This document shows positions 2,639 to 64,000 of a DNA stretch of 64,000 nucleotides, one piece after another. The translations under genes were made by a program, and so were the position numbers. Every line of letters begins with the position of its first letter. Positions within the stretch are counted from its first letter, which is position 1. The notes under the pieces are model-generated. The model did no database searches, was not told where the DNA came from, and was given only the letters and a program-made list of their open reading frames with translations. Source of the stretch: Variovorax sp. ZS18.2.2 (GTDB lineage: Bacteria; Pseudomonadota; Gammaproteobacteria; Burkholderiales; Burkholderiaceae_C); contig NZ_JANLNM010000002.1 in NCBI RefSeq assembly GCF_024701975.1, positions 62,001 through 126,000 on the forward strand, written 5' to 3'.

Positions 2639-2718
2639 TTTTGGGGCGGTTGTTTACATACTCGGCACCTTTTTGCGAACTCCGCGACCGGCTTTCACGC
2701 TGGCTGCGCCTCCTCTCC

Positions 2719-3591
2719 ATGACCAACCATTCGCCTGATACGGCCCGCGGCGACGCGGAGCAGCCGGTCATCCGTCTTCAATCGGTGCAGAAGTCCTTTG
2801 CCCTGCCCAGCGGCGAGGTGTTCGACGCCGTGCAGTCGCTCTCGCTCGACATCCACCAGGGCGACGTGTTCGGCCTGATCGGCAAGAGCGGCGCCGGCAA
2901 GTCGACGCTGCTGCGCCTCATCAACCTGCTGGAGCGGCCCGATGCGGGCAAGGTCTTCGTCGGTGGGCGCGACCTCACCACGCTCTCGCGCCGCGAGCTG
3001 CGCGACACGCGCCAGAACATCGGCATGATCTTCCAGCAGTTCAACCTGCTGCAGAACGCCACGGTGTTCGACAACGTGGCCTTCCCGTTGAAGATCCACG
3101 GCCGCCACTCGAAGGCCGAGATCAACACGCGGGTGCGCGAATGCCTCGACCTCGTGGGCCTTGCCGAGAAGATCGACACCTACCCGGCTCAGCTCTCGGG
3201 CGGCCAGAAGCAGCGCGTGGCCATCGCCCGCGCGCTGGCGCCGCGTCCGCAGGTGCTGCTGTGCGACGAGCCCACCTCGGCGCTCGACACCGAAACTACC
3301 CGCTCGCTGCTCGAGACGCTGCGCGACATCAACCAAAAGATCGGCGTGACCATCGTGATCGTGACGCACGAGCTTTCGGTGGTCGAGGTGCTGTGCCGCA
3401 ACGTGGCCATCCTCGAGAAGGGCCGGCTGGTCGAGCAGTTCGCTGTCGATGCGCCGAGCGAAGAGCGCAAGACGGCCCTCGGCCGCGAGATCGACGAGCT
3501 GGTGCGCCGCCGCGAGCGCGAGGCGCGCCTGCCGGTCGAGCCGCGCCCCGCATCCGCCGCGCGCAACGCACAGGAGGTGGCCTATGTTTGA
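2719..3591 (+). CDS. metN: Methionine ABC transporter ATP-binding protein, short form without NIL domain
   Basis: ATPase of the MetNIQ importer. The ATG at 2719 gives 290 residues; a longer frame from 2641 adds an unlikely N-terminal extension. Walker A GKSGAGKST is at residues 55-63, the signature LSGGQKQR at about 157-164, and Walker B LLCDEPTSALD follows near 180. E. coli MetN (343 aa) carries a C-terminal NIL/ACT-like domain that binds methionine and inhibits transport. Here the protein ends shortly after the ATPase core with a charged tail, so that feedback domain is absent. The stop overlaps the metI start by 8 bp, indicating translational coupling. Confidence 0.92.
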   Translation: MTNHSPDTARGDAEQPVIRLQSVQKSFALPSGEVFDAVQSLSLDIHQGDVFGLIGKSGAGKSTLLRLINLLERPDAGKVFVGGRDLTTLSRRELRDTRQNIGMIFQQFNLLQNATVFDNVAFPLKIHGRHSKAEINTRVRECLDLVGLAEKIDTYPAQLSGGQKQRVAIARALAPRPQVLLCDEPTSALDTETTRSLLETLRDINQKIGVTIVIVTHELSVVEVLCRNVAILEKGRLVEQFAVDAPSEERKTALGREIDELVRRREREARLPVEPRPASAARNAQEVAYV

Positions 3592-4246
3592 GAACATCGC
3601 CCCCATCCTTCCCGAGCTCTGGACCGCCACGGGCCAGACTTTCATGATGCTGGCCATCGGCCTCTCGGCCGCGGTGCTGATCGGCGGGCCGCTGGGCATC
3701 CTGCTGTTCCTGTTGGGGCCGGGTCAGTCGCTGGAGAACAAGCCGGCGTTCCTCATCCTCAACTGGATCGTCAACACGGTCCGCTCCTTCCCTTTCATCA
3801 TCCTGCTGGTGGCGCTGGTGCCGTTCACGCGAATCATCGCGGGCACCTCCATCGGGCCTCTGGCGGCGGCGGTGCCGCTGTCGTTCGCGGCCATTCCGTA
3901 TTTCGCGCGGCTGGTGGACCAGTGCCTGCGCGAAGTGCCGCGCGGCGTGATCGAGGCGGCGCATGCCATGGGCGCCTCGGAGCTGCAGATCGTCTGGCGC
4001 GTGCTGGTGGTGGAGGCGCGCTCGGGCCTGGTGCTCGCGCTCACGGTGCTGGCGGTGAGCTTTCTCTCGTACTCGGCGATTGCCGGCGTGGTGGGCGGCG
4101 GCGGCATCGGCGACCTGGCGATCCGCTACGGCTACTACCGCTTCCAGACCGACGTGATGGTGCTCACCGTGGCGCTGCTCGTGGTGCTGGTACAGATCCT
4201 GCAATTCGTGGGGAACACCACGGCACGCAGGCTGGACAAGCGTTGA
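3584..4246 (+). CDS. metI: Methionine ABC transporter permease
   Basis: Inner-membrane permease of 220 residues, the usual MetI length. The start at 3584 follows a strong AGGAGG ribosome-binding site inside the end of metN. Several hydrophobic segments are evident (for example LAIGLSAAVLIGGPLGILLF). The BPD-transport coupling loop that docks onto the ATPase reads EAAHAMGASELQIVWRVLV, with the conserved EAA...G pattern. It is followed 41 bp later by the second metQ, giving a metN-metI-metQ operon. Confidence 0.93.
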   Translation: MFENIAPILPELWTATGQTFMMLAIGLSAAVLIGGPLGILLFLLGPGQSLENKPAFLILNWIVNTVRSFPFIILLVALVPFTRIIAGTSIGPLAAAVPLSFAAIPYFARLVDQCLREVPRGVIEAAHAMGASELQIVWRVLVVEARSGLVLALTVLAVSFLSYSAIAGVVGGGGIGDLAIRYGYYRFQTDVMVLTVALLVVLVQILQFVGNTTARRLDKR

Positions 4247-4287
4247 TTTCCTTCTTTTCTCCCTTTCTCTTTCCTGTTGCTCATTCC

Positions 4288-5109
4288 ATGAAAACCGCAT
4301 TGCTGCGCCGCTCCGTCCTCGCCGTTTCCCTCGTCGCGCTGTCGTTCGGCGGCCTTTCGCTGGCGCAGGCGCAAGACGCCAAGAAGAACCTCGTGATCGG
4401 CGGTACCGCCGGCTCGAACATCGACCAGCTGAAGGTCGGCATCGTCCCGATCCTCGAGAAGAAGGGCTACAAGGTGAAGCTGGTCGAGTTCAACGACTAC
4501 GTGCAGCCCAACCTGGCGCTCGCCCAGGGTTCGCTCGACGCCAATTTCTTCCAGCATCAGGTCTACCTGAAGAAGTTCTCGGCCGACCAGAAGCTGGACC
4601 TCGCCGAACTGGTGCAGGGCCCGATCGCGCCGCTGGGCGTGTACTCGACCAAGCGCAAGACGCTGGCCGACGTGAAAGAGGGCGACCGCGTCACGTTGCC
4701 GAACGACCCGAGCAACCTGGCGCGCGCGCTGGTGCTGCTGGAGCAGAACAAGCTCATCACCATCAAGGCCGGCGTGGACCCGATCCGTGCGTCCGAAAAA
4801 GACGTGGCCGAGAACCCGAAGAAGCTCAAGTTCATTCCGCTCGAAGCCGCGCAGCTGCCGCGTTCGCTGGGCGACACCGAGTACGCCATCGTCAACGGCA
4901 ACTTCGCGATCTCGTCGGGCCTGAAGCTCAGCGAGGCGGTGGTGCTGGAGAAAACGCCCGACTACTATCTCAATGTGGTCGCAGTGAAGACCGGCGACAA
5001 GAACTCGGCCTGGGCCAAGGACATCGTCGAGGCCTACCACTCGAAGGAATTCAAGACGGTGGTCGACACCAAGTTCCAGGGCTACGCCAAGCCCAGCTTC
5101 CTGCAGTAA
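4288..5109 (+). CDS. metQ: MetQ/NlpA-family substrate-binding protein, operonic copy
   Basis: Second MetQ paralogue, 273 residues, third gene of the metNIQ operon and so the most likely cognate binding protein. The signal peptide is MKTALLRRSVLAVSLVALSF...LAQAQ with no lipobox Cys. Family blocks VEFNDYVQPNLALAQGSLDA, NFFQHQVYLKKF and NPKKLKFIPLEAAQLPRSL are present. It is clearly related to the divergent copy at 1669-2481 and the third copy at 7116-7949 but differs in many positions, suggesting different ligand preference rather than recent duplication. Confidence 0.9.
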   Translation: MKTALLRRSVLAVSLVALSFGGLSLAQAQDAKKNLVIGGTAGSNIDQLKVGIVPILEKKGYKVKLVEFNDYVQPNLALAQGSLDANFFQHQVYLKKFSADQKLDLAELVQGPIAPLGVYSTKRKTLADVKEGDRVTLPNDPSNLARALVLLEQNKLITIKAGVDPIRASEKDVAENPKKLKFIPLEAAQLPRSLGDTEYAIVNGNFAISSGLKLSEAVVLEKTPDYYLNVVAVKTGDKNSAWAKDIVEAYHSKEFKTVVDTKFQGYAKPSFLQ

Positions 5110-5133: not shown

Positions 5134-5487
5134 ATGCCCGTGCTCGCCGTATTCGATGCCCAAGCCAACTGGCGCGACACGCATGTGTGCGACGGATGGA
5201 TCACCGAGCATCTGGCGAAGCAGGGGGTGAGTTGGGGGCGGGGGAAGGCGAAGAAGGGGCAGCGTGCGCTCGATGGGGCGGGGCTGTTCTATCTGCCTAC
5301 GGCTGACGGATATCTGGGCCTGCTGTTCGAAGGGGGCGAGTGGGTTTCCATTCCATCTGGCAAGCTGCATTTCTTCGATGCGGGCGAGGCGGAGTCTTTC
5401 GATGGGCTGCCTGCTGCGCTGCCGCTGTTCGAGGCCTTCGTTGAAGAAGTGCTATCGCTGACGGGGAACGACGCCGACGACGAGTGA
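5134..5487 (+). CDS. Small hypothetical protein, acireductone-dioxygenase (cupin)-like
   Basis: Protein of 117 residues starting 24 bp after metQ. The segment GEWVSIPSGKLHFFDAGE resembles the last beta-strands of acireductone dioxygenase (typically a ...IPAGTxHWFDxG pattern), and the N-terminus (LAVFDAQ...HLAKQGVSW) resembles the start of that family. The usual metal ligands, an HxH...E set before the final His, are not seen, and the protein is well short of the roughly 180-residue enzymes. It may be a diverged or decayed relative of the methionine-salvage enzyme, consistent with its position behind methionine uptake genes. Activity is doubtful and the homology is a visual judgement. Confidence 0.5.
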   Translation: MPVLAVFDAQANWRDTHVCDGWITEHLAKQGVSWGRGKAKKGQRALDGAGLFYLPTADGYLGLLFEGGEWVSIPSGKLHFFDAGEAESFDGLPAALPLFEAFVEEVLSLTGNDADDE

Positions 5488-5512
5488 GCGCCTTTGTTCA
5501 GGGCGTGTGCAC

Positions 5513-5744
5513 AGGCCATCGGGTACTCCCCTCCGCGAATGTCCCCCGGCTTCGCCTCCTCCTTGATTTCGCTGCGGGGAGCACCCGACGCCCTACGCAC
5601 GTGGACGTGCTGTGGGTGTGCGGCCGATCAACGACTGCTCTGAAAACGAGCGTGCCGATGGGGTGCTTTGCGCAGCGAAATCAAGGAGGAGGGGCGAAGC
5701 CCCGGGGGACATTCGCGGAGCAAGGTACCCCATCGGCACGCTCG
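5513..5744. repeat. Inverted pair of MITE-like repeats, one with perfect terminal inverted repeats
   Basis: The 273-bp gap between two convergent genes holds two copies of one element in opposite orientation. The right copy (5647-5744, 98 bp) has perfect 18-bp terminal inverted repeats, CGAGCGTGCCGATGGGGT at 5647-5664 and its complement at 5727-5744. The left copy (about 5513-5590) shares the blocks CTCCGCGAATGTCCCCC and TCCTCCTTGATTTCGCTGCG but lacks intact ends. No open frame within either looks real. Transcription through the pair would form a long hairpin, so it may also serve as a bidirectional terminator. Confidence 0.75.
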
Positions 5745-5760
5745 TCACCCTGAACAACGC

Positions 5761-7119
5761 TCAAGCTGCCAGCCGCTGCGCCACTCGCCCGCCGGGTCGC
5801 GCCAGCCCGAGGTGATCGCGCAGCGTGCGCCCTTCGTACTCGGTGCGGAAGAGCCCCCGCTTCTGCAGGATCGGCACCACACCATCGACGAAGTCCTGCA
5901 GCCCATGTGGCAGCGCATCCGGCATCAGGTTGAAGCCATCTGCGGCACCACCCTTGAACCAGTGCTCGATATCGTCGGCGATCTGCTCCGGCGTCCCCAC
6001 GATCACCCGATGCCCGCCGCCGCCCGCGAGTTCGCGGATCAACTGGCGGACCGTGTAGCCGTGCGTGCGGCCGGCCGCGACCACCGCGTTGAAGAAGGTG
6101 TGGTTGCCGTTGCCATTGCCCGGGAGCGGCAGGTTGTCGGGCAGGCGCTCGTCGAGCTTCAGACGGTCGGGCGTGATGCCCAGCGTGCCGGCGATTCGCG
6201 TGAGGCTGTAGTCCCACGGGATCAGATCGACCAGTTCGTCGCGGCGTCGGCGCGCTTCGGCCTCTGTGCCGCCCACGATGGTGGTGAGGCCGGCGAGCAC
6301 CTTCACCGCATCGGGGCCGCGGCCCAGTTCGGCGGCGCGGGTCTTGAGGGCGCGCGCGTAGGCCAGCGATTCTTCGAAAGACTGGGAGGCCGAGAACACG
6401 GCTTCTGCATGGCGTGACGCAAGCTCGCGCCCATCGGCTGATGCACCCGCCTGCACCAGCACGGGATGCCCCTGCGGCGCACGCGGCAGGTTCAGCGGCC
6501 CCTGCACCGCGAAGTGCTCGCCACGGTGCGCAATCGCATGCACCTTGGTTGGGTCGATGAAGCTGCCGGTGGCCTTGTTGCCGATGAAGGCATCGTCTTC
6601 CCAGCTGTCCCACAGCGCCTTCACGATGTCGGCGAACTCCGAGGCGCGGGCGTAGCGCTTCGTGTGGTCGGGCGTGGTGTCCAGGCCGAAGTTGCGGGCC
6701 GAGGGCAGGTCGGCCGTGGTCACCATGTTCCAGCCCGCGCGGCCGTTGCTCACGTGGTCAAGCGTCGAGAAACGGCGCGCGATGTTGTAGGGCTCGTTGT
6801 AGCTGGTGGAGGCGGTAGCGATGAGGCCGATGTGCGTCGTCGCCGCGGCCACGCAGGCCAGCAGGATGGTTGGTTCCAGCGCGGTGATCGGGCGGAAGTG
6901 GATCTGGTCCACGATGGCCGCGTTGTCCGCGAGGAAGATCGCATCGAGCTTGGCCGCTTCGGCGATCTGCGCGGTGCGGATGTAGTGCTGGATGTCTGCG
7001 AACGCCCACGGGTCGCTCTCCGGCAGCCGCCAGGCCGAAGGCACGAAGCCCGAATGCAGGATGTTGACGTTGAGGTGCAGTTGCCTGCGTGGCGCTGTGC
7101 TGTTGCTGCTATCGCTCAT
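5761..7119 (-). CDS. LLM-class FMN-dependent monooxygenase (NtaA/SnaA/DszA type)
   Basis: Flavin-dependent two-component monooxygenase of 452 residues, luciferase-like TIM-barrel family. Typical blocks are LNVNILHSGFVPSAWRLPE at the N-terminus, AEAAKLDAIFLADN, and NGRAGWNMVTTADLPSARNFG, the family's NGRxxWNxVTS-like segment. The start at 7119 overlaps the stop of the upstream NlpA-like gene by 4 bp (ATGA), so the two are translationally coupled. Pairing with a MetQ-like binding protein suggests oxidation of an imported organosulfur compound (sulfonate, sulfone or methionine-like), but homologues also act on nitrilotriacetate and antibiotics. A flavin reductase partner is not seen nearby. Confidence 0.85.
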   Translation of the reverse strand: MSDSSNSTAPRRQLHLNVNILHSGFVPSAWRLPESDPWAFADIQHYIRTAQIAEAAKLDAIFLADNAAIVDQIHFRPITALEPTILLACVAAATTHIGLIATASTSYNEPYNIARRFSTLDHVSNGRAGWNMVTTADLPSARNFGLDTTPDHTKRYARASEFADIVKALWDSWEDDAFIGNKATGSFIDPTKVHAIAHRGEHFAVQGPLNLPRAPQGHPVLVQAGASADGRELASRHAEAVFSASQSFEESLAYARALKTRAAELGRGPDAVKVLAGLTTIVGGTEAEARRRRDELVDLIPWDYSLTRIAGTLGITPDRLKLDERLPDNLPLPGNGNGNHTFFNAVVAAGRTHGYTVRQLIRELAGGGGHRVIVGTPEQIADDIEHWFKGGAADGFNLMPDALPHGLQDFVDGVVPILQKRGLFRTEYEGRTLRDHLGLARPGGRVAQRLAA

Positions 7120-7949
7120 TGGCTGAAATAGTCCGGCAGCCGGTAGCCCGCCCACACGGGGTTGGCCCTGAAGAACTTCTGGAACTCCGGCGACTGGTAG
7201 GCGGCCACGATGTCTTTCGCGAACTTCGCGTTCTCATTGCTGCGCTTGACGGCCACCACGTTCACGTAGGGCAGCGTCATGTCTTCGAGCTTCAGCGCCT
7301 CGGTGAGCTTCAGGCCCGAGGCCACGGCGAAGTTGCCCTGCACGGCCGCGAGGTCGGCATCGGCCAGCGAGCGCGGAGCCTGCGCTGCATCGAGCGGCAC
7401 GATCTTCAGCCGCTTGGGGTTGTTGACGATGTCGCGCTCCGACACGCTCAGCGGGCTCACGCCCGGCTTCAGCGTCACCCAGCCGACGGCCGCGAGGATG
7501 TTGAGCGCACGCGCCGCATTCACCGGATCGGCGGGCAGCGTGACGGTCGCGCCGTCGGGCACCTTGTCGAGCGACTTGTGGCGCTGCGAGTACAGCCCCA
7601 TCGGTGGCGTCGGCACATGCACCACCGGCACGAGGTCGAAGCCCTGCTGCTTGTTGGTGGCGTTGAGGTACAGCGTGTGCTGGAAGATGTTGGCGTCGAT
7701 CTGCCCGCGCTCCACCGCGTCGTTGGGTTGCACGCCCTGGCTGAACTCGACGTACTTGATGGTGTAGCCCAGCTTCTTGAGCTGCGGCTCGATGCCGTTC
7801 GTGAAGGCATCGCGGTACGGGCCGGGCATGAAGCCCACGCGCAGGTCGTCGGCGTGGGCGGAAACGTGCAGGAGCAGGCTCAGTGCGAGGCCGCCGGACA
7901 GCGGGGCGAGGCGGCGCAGCCACGAGGGCGCGCGCGAAAGGGAAGGCAT
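7116..7949 (-). CDS. MetQ/NlpA-family substrate-binding protein, third paralogue
   Basis: Periplasmic binding protein of 277 residues. The ATG at 7949 has GGAG about 8 bp upstream. The signal peptide is LSGGLALSLLLHVSAHA with no lipobox. Family blocks YVEFSQGVQPNDAVERGQID, NIFQHTLYL and NPKRLKIVPLDAAQAPRSL are present. It is followed by the coupled LLM monooxygenase and has no ATPase or permease of its own here, so it may share metNI at 2719-4246. The genomic pairing, not the sequence, suggests a sulfur-source ligand. Confidence 0.85.
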   Translation of the reverse strand: MPSLSRAPSWLRRLAPLSGGLALSLLLHVSAHADDLRVGFMPGPYRDAFTNGIEPQLKKLGYTIKYVEFSQGVQPNDAVERGQIDANIFQHTLYLNATNKQQGFDLVPVVHVPTPPMGLYSQRHKSLDKVPDGATVTLPADPVNAARALNILAAVGWVTLKPGVSPLSVSERDIVNNPKRLKIVPLDAAQAPRSLADADLAAVQGNFAVASGLKLTEALKLEDMTLPYVNVVAVKRSNENAKFAKDIVAAYQSPEFQKFFRANPVWAGYRLPDYFSQ

Positions 7950-8032
7950 GACGACAACTCCGGGAGACGGCAACAGGAGTCGGGCACTCTAGGCGACGGT
8001 GCATGCCGCGCGAACGAAGATTTGCGCGCTTG

Positions 8033-49157: not shown

Positions 49158-54453
<5,296 letters not shown>

Positions 54454-54454
<1 letters not shown>

Positions 54455-57400
54455 TGACCACCGCCTTCAACGAATCCGCCGAACCCACCGGTCTCGAGAT
54501 TGCCATCGTCGGCCTGTCCGGGCGCTTCCCGGGCGCCGACGATGTGGACGCCTTCTGGCGCAACATCCAGGGCGGCGTGGAGTCGGTGTCGCGCTTCACC
54601 GATGCGCAGTTGCGCGAACGCGGCGTGCCGCAGAGCCTGCTGGACGATCCCGACTACGTGAAGGCCGGCGTGATGTTCGAAGGCTTCGACCAGTTCGATC
54701 CCGGCTTCTTCGGCTACACGCCCCGCGAGGCGGAGAACCTCGATCCGCAGCAGCGCATCTTTCTCGAATGCGCCTCGGCGGCGCTCGAACATGCCGGCTG
54801 CGATCCCGAGCGCTGGCCGGGCAAGGTCGGCGTGTATGCGGGCGAGGGCGCCAACGTCTACCTGATCCGCAACCTGCTGCCGTCCTTCGGCCTCGGCGCA
54901 CACACGGGCATTGCCGACCTGCTCGGCCTCATGAGCGGCAACTCCGGCGGTTCGCTGTGCACGCGCGTTGCCTACAAGCTCAACTTGCGCGGCCCCGCCG
55001 TGAGCGTGCAGACCGCCTGCTCCACGTCGCTCACCGCCGTTCACACAGCCTGCCAGGCGCTCCTGAGCCACGACTGCGACATGGCCCTGGCCGGCGGCGT
55101 GTGGCTCAACCTGTTGCAAGAGGGCGGCTACCGCTACCAGGCCGGCGCGATCCTCTCGCCCGATGGCCATTGCCGCGCCTTCGACGCCGATGCCGCCGGC
55201 ACGGTGATCGGCAGCGGCGCCGGCGTCGTCGCGCTCAAGCGCCTGGACGAAGCGCTGCGCGACGGCGACACCATCCACGCGGTCATCAAGGGCACCGCGG
55301 CCAACAACGACGGCTCCGCCAAGGTCGGCTTCACCGCGCCCAGCATCGACGGGCAGGCCGAAGTGATCCGCGCGGCGCAACTGATCGCAGGCGTCTCGGC
55401 CGACACCATCGGCTACATCGAGACGCATGGCACCGGCACCACGCTGGGCGATCCGATCGAGATCGCGGCGCTCACGCAGGCCTTCCGCGCCGACACCGAG
55501 CGGCGCGGCTTCTGCGCGGTCGGTTCGGTCAAGACCAACATCGGCCACCTCGATGCGGCGGCCGGCGTGGCGGGGCTCATCAAGGCCACGATGGCGCTCA
55601 AACACGGCGTGCTGCCACCCAGCCTGCATTTCACGAAGCCCAACCCGCAGATCGATTTCGCGAGCAGCCCGTTCTATGTGAATGCGCAGCGCCAGCCCTG
55701 GCCCGTAGGCCGTACGCCGCGTCGCGCGGGCGTGAGTTCGTTCGGCATCGGCGGGACCAATGTGCACGTGGTGCTCGAAGAGGCGCCGGTGGCCCGTCCG
55801 TCCGCACAAGCAAATGCACCGGCTTGGCAGGTCTTGCCGCTCTCCGCCCGCAACACCGACGCCTTGCAGCAAGCCGCGCAACGGCTGGCCAGCCATCTCG
55901 AAGAAGCAGGCTCTGGCACATCGCTCGTCGATGTCGCGCAGACGCTGCAGACCGGCCGGCGCGCGCTGGCGGTTCGCGGCGCGGTCGTTGCCGACGGGTC
56001 GGCAACCGCCGTCGAGGCGCTGCGTGCGCCCGAAAGCGACTTCGACCAGGCGAGCGGCATCCCCGCGTCGGCACCCGAGGTCGCGTTCCTCTTCCCGGGC
56101 GGCGGCACGCAGCACGCGAACATGGGGCTCGCGCTCTACCGCGACCATCCGGTCTTCCGCGAGGAGATCGATCGCTGCTGCGCCGCGCTGCGCGAGGTGA
56201 TGGGCATGGACCTGCGGCAGCTGCTCTATCCGGCCGCCGGTGGCGAAGCCGCGGCCGACGAGCAGCTCGGCCGCATCGAATACACGCAGCCGCTGCTGTT
56301 CATCGTCGAGTACGCGATGGCGCGCCTGTGGATGTCGCGCGGCGTGCAGCCCGCCGTGATGCTGGGCCACAGCCTGGGCGAGTACGTTGCCGCGTGCCTG
56401 GCCGGCGTGTTCAGCCTGGAAGACGCGCTGCGCATCGTGGCCACGCGCGGCCGGCTGATGCAGTCGATGTCGCCGGGCGCGATGACCGCCATCGCCCTGT
56501 CCGAAGCCGAACTCGCGCCTTTCCTGGCCACCGGCTGCGACATCGCGGCGATCAACGGCGAGCAACTGTGCGTGCTCGCCGGGCCGATGGCGGCCATCGA
56601 GGCGGCCGAGCAGCAGCTCTTCGCGCGCGGCCTGATGCCGCGCCGCCTGCTGGTCTCGATCGCCTCCCATTCGGCGATGACCGAGTCCATCGTGGCCGAG
56701 CTGCAGCAGGTGGTCGCTTCGGTGCCGCGGTCTGCGCCCCGCATTCCCTTCATCTCCAACGTCACCGGCAAGCCCATCACGGCGCAGCAGGCGATCGATC
56801 CGGCCTACTGGGGCCAGCACCTGCGCGGCACGGTGCGCTTCGCGGACGGCGTGGCGGAACTGCTGCGCGTCGAGGGCCGCGTGCTGCTGGAAGTCGGTCC
56901 CGGCGAGACGCTGGCCGGCCTCGCGCGCCAGCATCCGCTGGCCGATTCGGCGGCGGCCGTCCTGTCGAGCCAGGCCCATCCGCAGAAGCAGGCGCAGAAC
57001 GAACGCCAGATGGCGAGCGTGATCGGCCAGCTCTGGTGCGCGGGCGTCGATATCGATTGGGCCGCGTGCCATCCCGGACGGCAAACCCGCCGGGTGCCGC
57101 TGCCGACCTACCCGTTCCAGCGCCGCTCCTATTGGACGGACATGCCCGACGCGGGCAGCGAAGTGGCGACCTCGTCCATGCAGAAGCCGGGCGACGCATT
57201 CCATGTGCCGGTCTGGCAGCGCACGGAGCCTGCGAGTACGCCAGCAGCCCCCGCACCGGCCGACGGCTGCACGCTGGTGTTCGCGGAGACGAGCGGCTTG
57301 ACCGACGCATTGATTCGCCAACTGCAGGCCGAAGCGCCCGCGCACCCGGTGGTTCGCGTGGCGCCGGGCAGCGGCTTTGCCGAAACGGGAGCGCGCCAGT

Positions 57401-59070
57401 TCACGGTACGCCCGGGCGAGCGTGCGGATCACGAAGAGCTTTTGCGCAAGGTGCAGGCCGAATCCGGGTCGGTCGCGAAGGTCTATCACCTGTGGAGCGT
57501 GGACGGCCAGCCGTCGTCTTCGTCGTCTTTGCCGCAATCGGAGGACGTGCTCGAGCGCGGCTACTTCAGCCTGCTGGCGCTGATTCAGGCCATCGACAGC
57601 ACCTCCGGCGGACGCGCGCGCAAGCTCTCGATCGAAGTCGTCGCGAACCAGATCGAAGATGTCTCCGGCCTTGAACCGCTGTGCCCCGAGAAGGCGACGC
57701 TGTTCAGCCTCTGCAAGGTGATCGCGCAGGAGTATCCGCACATCGCTTGCCGCGTGACTGACATCGTCTTGCCCGTGCCGGGCAGCGCCGCCGAATCGTG
57801 GCTCGCAAGACAACTCGCCGCACCGGCACAGGCGCCGAACGACGAAACGCTCGTGGCCTATCGCGGCCCGCATCGCTGGGTCAAGACCTATGCGCCGCTG
57901 CCGTCCGGCGCCGCGCCGCAGCAGCGCCTGCGTTCCAAGGGCGTGTACCTGATCACCGGCGGTCTCGGTGGCGTGGGGCTCGCGGTCGCACGGCACCTGG
58001 CCGAGTCGTGGCAGGCACGGCTGGTGCTGCTGGGGCGCACACCGCTGCCCGAACGCAGCCAGTGGGAAGCCCTCGTCGCGGACGAAGCGCAACCCCAGGC
58101 GCTGCGGACCATGCTCGTGCAACTGATCGAACTCGAAAACCTGGGCGGCGAAGTGCTCGTCGTCGCGGCCAACGTGGCCGATGCAGCCTCGATGCAAGCC
58201 GCCGCCGCAGAGGCCCGCGCCCGCTTCGGCATGGTGCAAGGCGTCGTGCACGCGGCCGGCCACGCGAACAGCGGAATGATCGCGACCCGCCCCCGCGCCG
58301 CCATCGACGAAGTCTTCGCACCCAAACTGCAGGGCACCCGCTTCCTGCTCGACGCGCTGCGTGACGAGCCGCTCGATTTCGTGCTGCTGTGTTCGTCGAT
58401 CTCCAGCATGGCCGGCGGCCTCGGCATGAGCGACTACGCCGCCGCAAACGCCTACCTCGACGCGCTGGCCGCGCTGTGGCAACGCAGTGCGACGTACCCC
58501 GTCATCTCGGTCAACTGGGACGCCTGGCGCGACCTCGGCATGGCGGCTGGCCGCGTGCTGCCCGAGGGCATCGGCATGGACGGCCCCGAGGGCGCGCGGG
58601 CGGTGGAGCGCATCGTCAACGGCCCGGCGTTCGCGCAGGTCGTGATCTCCACCACCGACCTGAACCAGCGGCTCGGCGAGCTGGACAACGGCATGCTCGA
58701 CCTGCTGGAGACCGGCCCGGTCGCGAAGAAGAAGCGCCGCGAACATCCGCGCCCCGCGCTGGCTACGCCTTTCGTCGCGCCGGAAGGCGAGCTGGAGAAC
58801 GTGCTCGCGGGCATCTGGCAGGACATGCTGGGCATCGCCAGCGTTGGCATCGACGACAACCTGTTCGAGCTGGGCGGCGATTCGCTGCTCGCGATCCAGA
58901 TTCTGGCCCGTGCACGCAAGGCCTACGAGGTCGAGCTGCATCCGGCCGCCTTTTTCAAGGCACCCACCATTCGCGACCTTGCGATCCTGGTCGAGACCCG
59001 GTTGATCGAGGAAATCGAGGCCGATGTTCCGGCCGATGCCGAGCCCGATCGCTCGCCCGCAACCGTCTGA
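54454..59070 (+). CDS. Type I polyketide synthase module: KS-AT-KR-ACP
   Basis: One-module PKS of 1538 residues. The start ATG shares one base with the preceding TGA. The ketosynthase (about 12-440) has catalytic Cys in VQTACSTSLT (about 189) and the His motifs ETHGTGT and NIGHLDAAAG. The acyltransferase (about 545-850) has GHSLGEY (Ser about 640) and IASHS at the specificity position. The ketoreductase (about 1165-1350) has TGGLGGVG and catalytic Tyr in DYAAANAYLD. The ACP Ser is in LFELGGDSLLAIQ (about 1475). No dehydratase or enoylreductase is present, so the unit added should keep a beta-hydroxyl. It extends the acyl-aminoacyl chain by two carbons. Confidence 0.94.
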
Positions 59071-59077
59071 AAAATCC

Positions 59078-64000
<4,923 letters not shown>

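Follow-up and report, generated by a model that had tools for sequence, protein, structure and literature searches.

A dispersed hairpin repeat of Variovorax as a candidate cargo-free member of a family of insertion cassettes with exchangeable, often defence-related cargo

Integron attC sites are single-strand hairpins recognised by their structure, and the exchangeable cassettes to which they belong may hold defence genes. A mobile insertion cassette (MIC) is a larger unit that has the same ends as a short one and carries passenger genes and no transposase. Both MITEs and MICs are described, in PMC3129680, as objects that a cognate transposase can activate in trans. For REP palindromes, PMC2817692 states that two inverted REPs invariably flank the genes of REP-associated tyrosine transposases (RAYTs). 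In Pseudomonas aeruginosa, core defence hotspots are, according to PMC10250203, chromosomal sites rich in defence systems.

Here, we studied a pair of hairpin arms in a 64,000-nt stretch of the Variovorax sp. ZS18.2.2 genome, all of which was analysed and is called the window below. We propose, with a probability of roughly 0.55, that the pair is the minimal, cargo-free member of a MITE/MIC family, in which the hairpin ends would be read by a putative enzyme and cargo would be exchanged via a leader and a trailer. As with MITEs and MICs, a short non-coding unit with inverted ends exists beside bigger, passenger-carrying units that have the same ends and no recognised transposase. The family differs from them in three respects: long folded arms form the ends and show paired change and a strand bias, the passenger genes are exchanged at fixed sites beside a conserved leader and a 90-aa ORF, and neither a parent IS nor a target-site duplication was found at the sites read. 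The open-licence literature searched held no description of this element.

A sequence-only reading had placed a MITE-like element at window positions 5513–5744. That stretch is real, but the repeated unit is some 30 nt longer and asymmetric. Judging from the matches of dispersed copies, it measures ~258–264 bp, starting at ~5494–5497 and ending at 5754–5757; at its full extent (5494–5757, ends read from the sequence, no strand assigned) the element is small (264 bp), non-coding, multi-copy and bounded by inverted 10-bp repeats. The left terminal repeat, TTGTTCAGGG (5494–5503, plus strand; ~TTCRGGGCG in other copies), pairs with the right one, CCCTGAACAA (5748–5757, plus strand). The left arm is an L-type hairpin on the minus strand (approximately 5505–5600), whose purine-rich minus strand is the better folder. 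Its conserved core, which contains the inner mini-hairpin GGCGAAGCC, lies at 5534–5571 on the same strand (core-pattern match G000:C22:67534-67571). A spacer (5601–5646, no strand) separates it from the right arm, an R-type hairpin of 98 nt on the plus strand (5647–5744) with its core and inner mini-hairpin GGGGCGAAGCCCC at 5676–5717, also plus (G000:C22:67676-67717). The right copy had been read as a unit with exact ends, and indeed its 18-bp inverted repeat (5647–5664 and 5727–5744) is perfect. The left copy is inverted, as had been claimed, in that it carries the core in inverse orientation, but it is not a degenerate version of the right one, since it has another type of outer stem. The element is polar, with one L-type arm, one R-type arm and a core common to both.

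The 251 nt spanning both arms fold into a single long hairpin (−159.6 kcal/mol, z −11.2, RNA parameters), and each arm also folds separately (DNA parameters). Both lie in a 273-nt gap between two convergent neighbours outside the element, namely a 117-aa ORF without a Pfam match upstream (5134–5487, plus strand) and a luciferase-like monooxygenase gene downstream (PF00296; 5761–7155, minus strand, 3′ end at 5761). Folding and gene map thus agree with the suggestion that the two copies form a long hairpin between convergent genes. Elsewhere in the window, we noted by eye ABC-transporter-like ORFs, including two similar MetQ-like binding proteins (2641–5109 and 7116–7973), and long diverged direct repeats of the modular NRPS/PKS-gene type (51000–64000). 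The MetQ-like ORFs are oppositely oriented around the element, with an inverted similarity of 71% between 4765–4949 and 7285–7469.

In the sequence-only reading, a single copy in all related genomes was named as the outcome that would speak against a MITE. The genome-wide search revealed the opposite, a multi-copy element with about 15 loci in its own genome. A 243-nt query gave 58 matches there at E ≤ 10 (7.23 Mb searched), and 15 separate loci could be aligned, 14 with E ≤ 1e-5 and three consisting of end fragments only. A strict core pattern matched 17 times and the reversed control pattern not once, which excludes chance as the source of the cores. Across the genus, cores were present in 46 of 61 genomes (own genome included), with 1–135 in each, and absent from the other 15, while the reversed control was without a match in all 61.

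A class-wide sample revealed the element in only 3 of 369 genomes, its own included. Scanning of named genomes yielded at least 118 stretches with the element (loci of up to 8 kb each), and their titles, 80 among the matches listed, are mostly those of Variovorax. Further genera among the matches listed are Rhodoferax, Ramlibacter, Hydrogenophaga, Pseudorhodoferax, Polaromonas and Xylophilus, besides unclassified Comamonadaceae and betaproteobacteria. The matches listed also include one case each in records of Thermomonas, Luteimonas and Stagnimonas, of which two are metagenome bins. Three Variovorax records of a plasmid collection carry arms, a phage collection searched for them yielded none, and in IMG/VR they occur on one contig (L429), whose ORFs, by eye, look like those of ordinary bacterial metabolism. 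From this spread, we infer that the arms are mobile.

Each arm is built from a variable outer stem, CGAAATNAAGGRGGAG, the inner mini-hairpin, CGGRGGACATTCG and the other side of the outer stem. In 251 distinct arms, Watson–Crick pairing reached 0.83–0.95 at stem positions 6–9, 16, 19 and 23–26, as compared to 0.36–0.53 when the two sides were drawn from different arms, a shuffle that ignores the kinship of the copies. Over these 251 related arms, the stems keep pairing while their sequence changes. Of the remaining stem positions, 11 and 17 pair chiefly by wobble, 20 is frequently mispaired (G.G in 66 of 251 arms) and the others are near-invariant; two mismatches are conserved, A.G in 234 and G.A in 231 of the 251.

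On the purine-rich strand, G.T wobbles outnumber A.C by 564 cells to 43, and by 269 to 43 when positions 11 and 17, the two commonest, are excluded. An excess of this kind is irrelevant to a duplex, and therefore the purine-rich strand appears to be the folding one. The window's own arms behave likewise, with −39.6 and −29.5 kcal/mol for the purine strand versus −34 and −22.3 kcal/mol for the other. The folded form of the purine-rich strand would be single-stranded DNA.

The inner hairpin occurs as 62 distinct sequences in 232 arms. A C(GNA)G triloop, a loop exceptionally stable in DNA, caps 188 of the 232, and a GNRA tetraloop none; because just 23 of the 62 distinct sequences carry C(GNA)G, the figure of 188 partly mirrors shared descent. 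Together, loop type and strand bias point to single-stranded DNA over RNA. An RNA element was considered and set aside in view of these loops, of an Rfam search of the element, whose 6 matches (to five miRNA families and an lncRNA exon) all fell well short of the gathering score, and of the lack of a clear strand preference among single arms in tandem gaps (13 on the same strand, 8 on the opposite one). The last of these fits DNA, and an RNA nature of the element is still conceivable. At the internal-loop positions GGyGG/GGzGG, 200 arms carry A,G (187), G,A (9), C,G (2), A,A (1) or G,G (1), where many of the arms were collected by a scan that required G at z and the copies are related, so that linkage by descent is possible. 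The two positions switch jointly (A,G or G,A), which is suggestive of a purine–purine contact or a two-layer quadruplex.

Paired, strand-biased palindromes raise the question of the enzyme, which the sequence-only reading had sought in a transposase elsewhere. If the element were of the REP/BIME type and moved by a RAYT (Y1), one would expect much of what we observe: like the REPs of PMC2817692, the arms form inverted palindrome pairs, lie between genes in high copy number and keep the palindrome under sequence change. They also have a preferred folding strand, and Y1_Tnp genes occur both in the element's own genome and in 57 of the 60 others searched. However, none of 58 Y1 loci has the core motif GGRGGACATT in its fetched flanks, the sole short-motif case being L195, with AAGGRGGAG 53 nt from the Y1 gene. 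Each genome has one Y1 copy (two partial matches in G056) whether it contains 0 or 135 cores, and for G035 (99% complete), which contains 9 cores, the Y1_Tnp search gave no match. The arms, which do not sit beside a Y1 gene and also bound multi-kb cargo, measure ~100 nt compared with roughly 20–40 nt for the REPs tabulated in PMC2817692, and their core is unlike the REPs given there, mostly headed by GTAG or GTGG. With a single gene copy per genome and no full core in the flanks of the 58 loci, we rejected mobilisation by Y1/RAYT as very unlikely, and for this enzyme the idea of a transposase elsewhere found no support.

The own Y1_Tnp gene (L166, G000:C3:56483-56818) and its relatives (L175–L232) are single-copy in almost every genus genome searched, and by this distribution the gene looks like a domesticated transposase. 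Within the genus, the Y1 proteins are 61–98% identical to the own one (25% in G072), and a comparison of the latter with the 118 named loci recovered one relative (L054), ~5 kb from a core. Core-rich genomes tend towards better Pfam E-values for Y1_Tnp, a trend that we read as phylogeny.

To follow the element at its own site, the window locus was searched in 45 genomes, 41 of which matched somewhere and 17 of which had both flanks readable. Eight of the 17 relatives have the full pair. In three of the others there is one arm alone, in five there are other dispersed repeats and in G016 a terminator-like sequence, i.e., the element is replaced or reduced in 9 of 17. At the L006 site, three relatives retain deletion remnants and five more distant ones are without a trace, being too diverged to define an insertion point. 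Neither a target-site duplication nor a clean empty site was found at the orthologous sites read or at the L006 site. The sequence-only reading had proposed to check empty sites in related strains; what appeared were replaced sites, remnants or diverged sites. Its label of MITE-like is borne out by the form of the element (non-coding, multi-copy, with inverted ends).

The repeats that replace the element are of more than one kind. Orthologues of 5488–5760 in G039 (L242), G038 (L247) and G048 (L248) hold another dispersed inverted repeat, GCCCCCACCCC..CCCTCCCCCGG, with two or more units each in L242 and L247, and those in G033 (L240) and G014 (L245) a third palindromic repeat, CTTCGACAAGCTCAG..CGAACGG. 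In the window itself, at ~1492–1600, a probably spurious ORF start, LLPPLGEGWDGGRR, resembles a translated CCCCCACCCC-type repeat, and a family copy may lie there.

The short terminal repeats TTCRGGGCG/CGCCCYGAA and the dispersed unit of 258–264 bp would also suit a standard DDE-type MITE with a parent IS that lies elsewhere or has been lost. A DDE transposase, however, does not need a strand-biased paired structure, the sites read displayed no target-site duplication, and no IS with these ends came up in an unsystematic look. We consider such an origin unlikely.

The position of the arms relative to genes bears on another explanation. In the 118 named loci, we counted 123 elements (58 pairs, all ordered minus, plus, and 65 single arms, some of which are ends of loaded cassettes, as in L131, L080, L133 and L045). 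After 29 of the 123 had been dropped as too near locus ends, an in-house codon-usage gene caller placed 94: 35 in convergent gaps, 54 in tandem gaps, 4 in divergent gaps and 1 within a called gene. The 276 other gaps of at least 60 nt used for comparison were 19 convergent, 168 tandem and 89 divergent. Among the 93 intergenic elements, convergent gaps are preferred (Fisher p 2e-11) and divergent gaps avoided (p 5e-9). In the tandem cases, the element follows the upstream stop codon by a median of 52 nt, and the stop is nearer than the next start in 37 of 54. This placement after gene ends fits terminator-like use or mere tolerance.

The sequence-only reading had allowed for terminator function, and the statistics of placement are on its side. 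A bidirectional terminator or mRNA 3′-end protector, spread by recombination and without mobility of its own, would account for the convergent, tandem and divergent counts and for the distance from the stop in tandem cases, and what G016 has at the orthologous site looks like a classical intrinsic terminator. Intrinsic terminators consist of a G+C-rich hairpin followed by a T run, yet no T run follows the window's arms. Furthermore, 15 of 61 genus genomes manage without a core, arms enclose several kilobases of cargo, and selection may simply act against insertion elsewhere. An element that is nothing but a terminator therefore seems doubtful to us.

We now return to the preferred reading, a cassette family, and to its loaded relatives. 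In the first such cases, the arms lay 3 kb (G049), 5.5 kb (G060) and 3 kb (named locus L131) apart, and the DNA between them had 56–58% GC in surroundings of 66–68%. In general, the larger relatives have 2–9 kb of lower-GC cargo in place of the spacer, and their arms are unchanged in type and polarity. The cargo is preceded by a conserved leader and a 90-aa ORF without a Pfam or NCBIfam match, relatives of which occur in 20 of 60 genomes at identities down to ~36%.

For this small ORF, we took the best-scoring 40 places together with L263, L283 and L131, 43 regions in all. A minus arm lies upstream in 24 of them, at 314–372 nt from the ORF in 23, and in three further named loci the distance is 349–362 nt. 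A plus arm downstream completes the structure in 16 of the 24 (that of L327 is weak, 15.4 bits); as L131 and L334 are the same in sequence, this leaves 15 independent two-armed regions. These 16 regions have the makeup of MICs: the same ends, passenger genes and no transposase in the proteins scanned.

The left arm of loaded cassettes is R in 19 of 20 typed cases and the right arm L in all 13 typed. Cargo-free pairs are RL (33) or LR (26), which are the two orientations, or RR (13), never LL; 'R' denotes any arm without the L motif, which makes RR a catch-all class. The polarity is the same in both forms, and the cargo, with leader, small ORF and trailer, occupies the position of the spacer. 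Homology at the left end takes in the arm, the leader (~350 nt) and the ORF, and the eight right ends inspected have a common trailer of ~100 nt. A loaded cassette would thus read R-arm, ~350-nt leader, 90-aa ORF, variable cargo, ~100-nt trailer, L-arm. In contrast to integron attC sites, the arms stand at both ends in inverse orientation and are dispersed singly, and no integrase or array was recognised among the proteins scanned.

The other 19 of the 43 regions have no upstream arm, so the leader and ORF exist armless too, which speaks against a simple cassette picture. Armless regions in which a leader of ~300 nt precedes the ORF are L335–L337, L347–L349, L351–L355, L357, L359, L360 and L362–L366. 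Leader and ORF may together form an expression module of their own, with a wider occurrence. In the plasmid collection, the small ORF was found in one Variovorax record, and the viral contigs searched for it yielded none.

Cargo was compared at sites shared by several genomes. In front of dctQ (by ORF reading, a TRAP transporter gene), a right arm was found in 12 of 30 genomes, besides a single weak remnant, and in G032 the arm stands alone, without cargo. At this site, L283, L131, L339, L346 and L356 have homologous outer flanks and right ends and non-homologous cargo (blastn pieces of at least 250 nt; the pair L339–L356 is absent from the comparison list). Flanks are likewise shared within two further groups, L328, L330, L333, L338 and L340 on the one hand and L341, L342, L344, L350 and L361 on the other. 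Conversely, L342 and L358 share a 2.2-kb piece of cargo that is 97% identical and have left flanks that do not match; a right arm was looked for in L342 and not found, and the comparison with L358 covers the left flank alone. Because cargo differs at the dctQ site and is shared by L342 and L358, it would appear to change between fixed ends and also to appear at different places. Homologous recombination of the ordinary kind, with the arms immobile, could also account for exchange at fixed sites.

A PADLOC search of 26 cargo proteins gave five matches reaching 1e-100, from three cargos, as compared to none among 40 random genes of the 118 named loci, where generic regulator/ATPase models reached 9e-90 and 1e-26. 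The strong matches to curated models are PD-Lambda-5 in L283 (A 2e-164, B 1.6e-117), Lamassu in L350 (LmuA 1.8e-227, LmuB 2.4e-211) and Gabija in L356 (GajB 6.8e-239, with an adjoining protein that has AAA and OLD-TOPRIM domains). Weaker ones were obtained for an OLD-like protein in L131/L334 (Old, 2.7e-26) and, in L339, for a caspase-type protein with a STAND-type neighbour (PDC-S65, 3e-44). The cargo of L263 has a TIR domain, recognised by Pfam TIR_2 only.

Other cargos gave different results. No defence match was obtained among the proteins tested from L329, L346 and L327, nor for the one protein each scanned with PADLOC from L358, L338 and L361. The L330 cargo has a GntR/aminotransferase gene, and the same ORF is found by sequence in L333 and L358. 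By these matches, predicted defence cargo is frequent, not universal: it accounts for 6 of 14 distinct cargos, the remaining 8 being unmatched or partly scanned (among them L345, which had no cargo protein in the PADLOC scan). The cargo proteins scanned, which are part of the cargo ORFs, include no recognised transposase or recombinase. The sites resemble the core defence hotspots of P. aeruginosa, as PMC10250203 presents them, in being chromosomal and rich in defence systems. What sets them apart from those hotspots is the dispersed hairpin repeat at the cargo boundaries, which is also present cargo-free.

In the cassette family that we favour, the purine-rich strand would fold as single-stranded DNA and mark the ends of the element for a candidate enzyme acting in trans, and recombination between leader and trailer, both of them conserved, would exchange the cargo. 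The hairpin pair would be tolerated after genes, where it may be harmless or may end transcripts. More tentatively, one could imagine a class of defence-carrying mobile elements, whose cassettes would be bounded by single-stranded DNA hairpins with a conserved, purine-rich internal loop and a stable C(GNA)G cap. A putative host or phage enzyme would recognise these by shape, and the cargo-free hairpin pairs would be leftovers.

MITEs, MICs and defence hotspots are known kinds of objects; their combination, with structured and strand-biased ends, looks new. It touches on the open question of how defence systems without visible mobility genes enter and leave chromosomal hotspots. The family offers a sequence-defined boundary for defence cassettes, with cargo-free copies in the same genomes, and these copies make exchange and transposition directly testable. 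The strand-biased structure, which preserves pairing, points to a putative protein that reads the arms.
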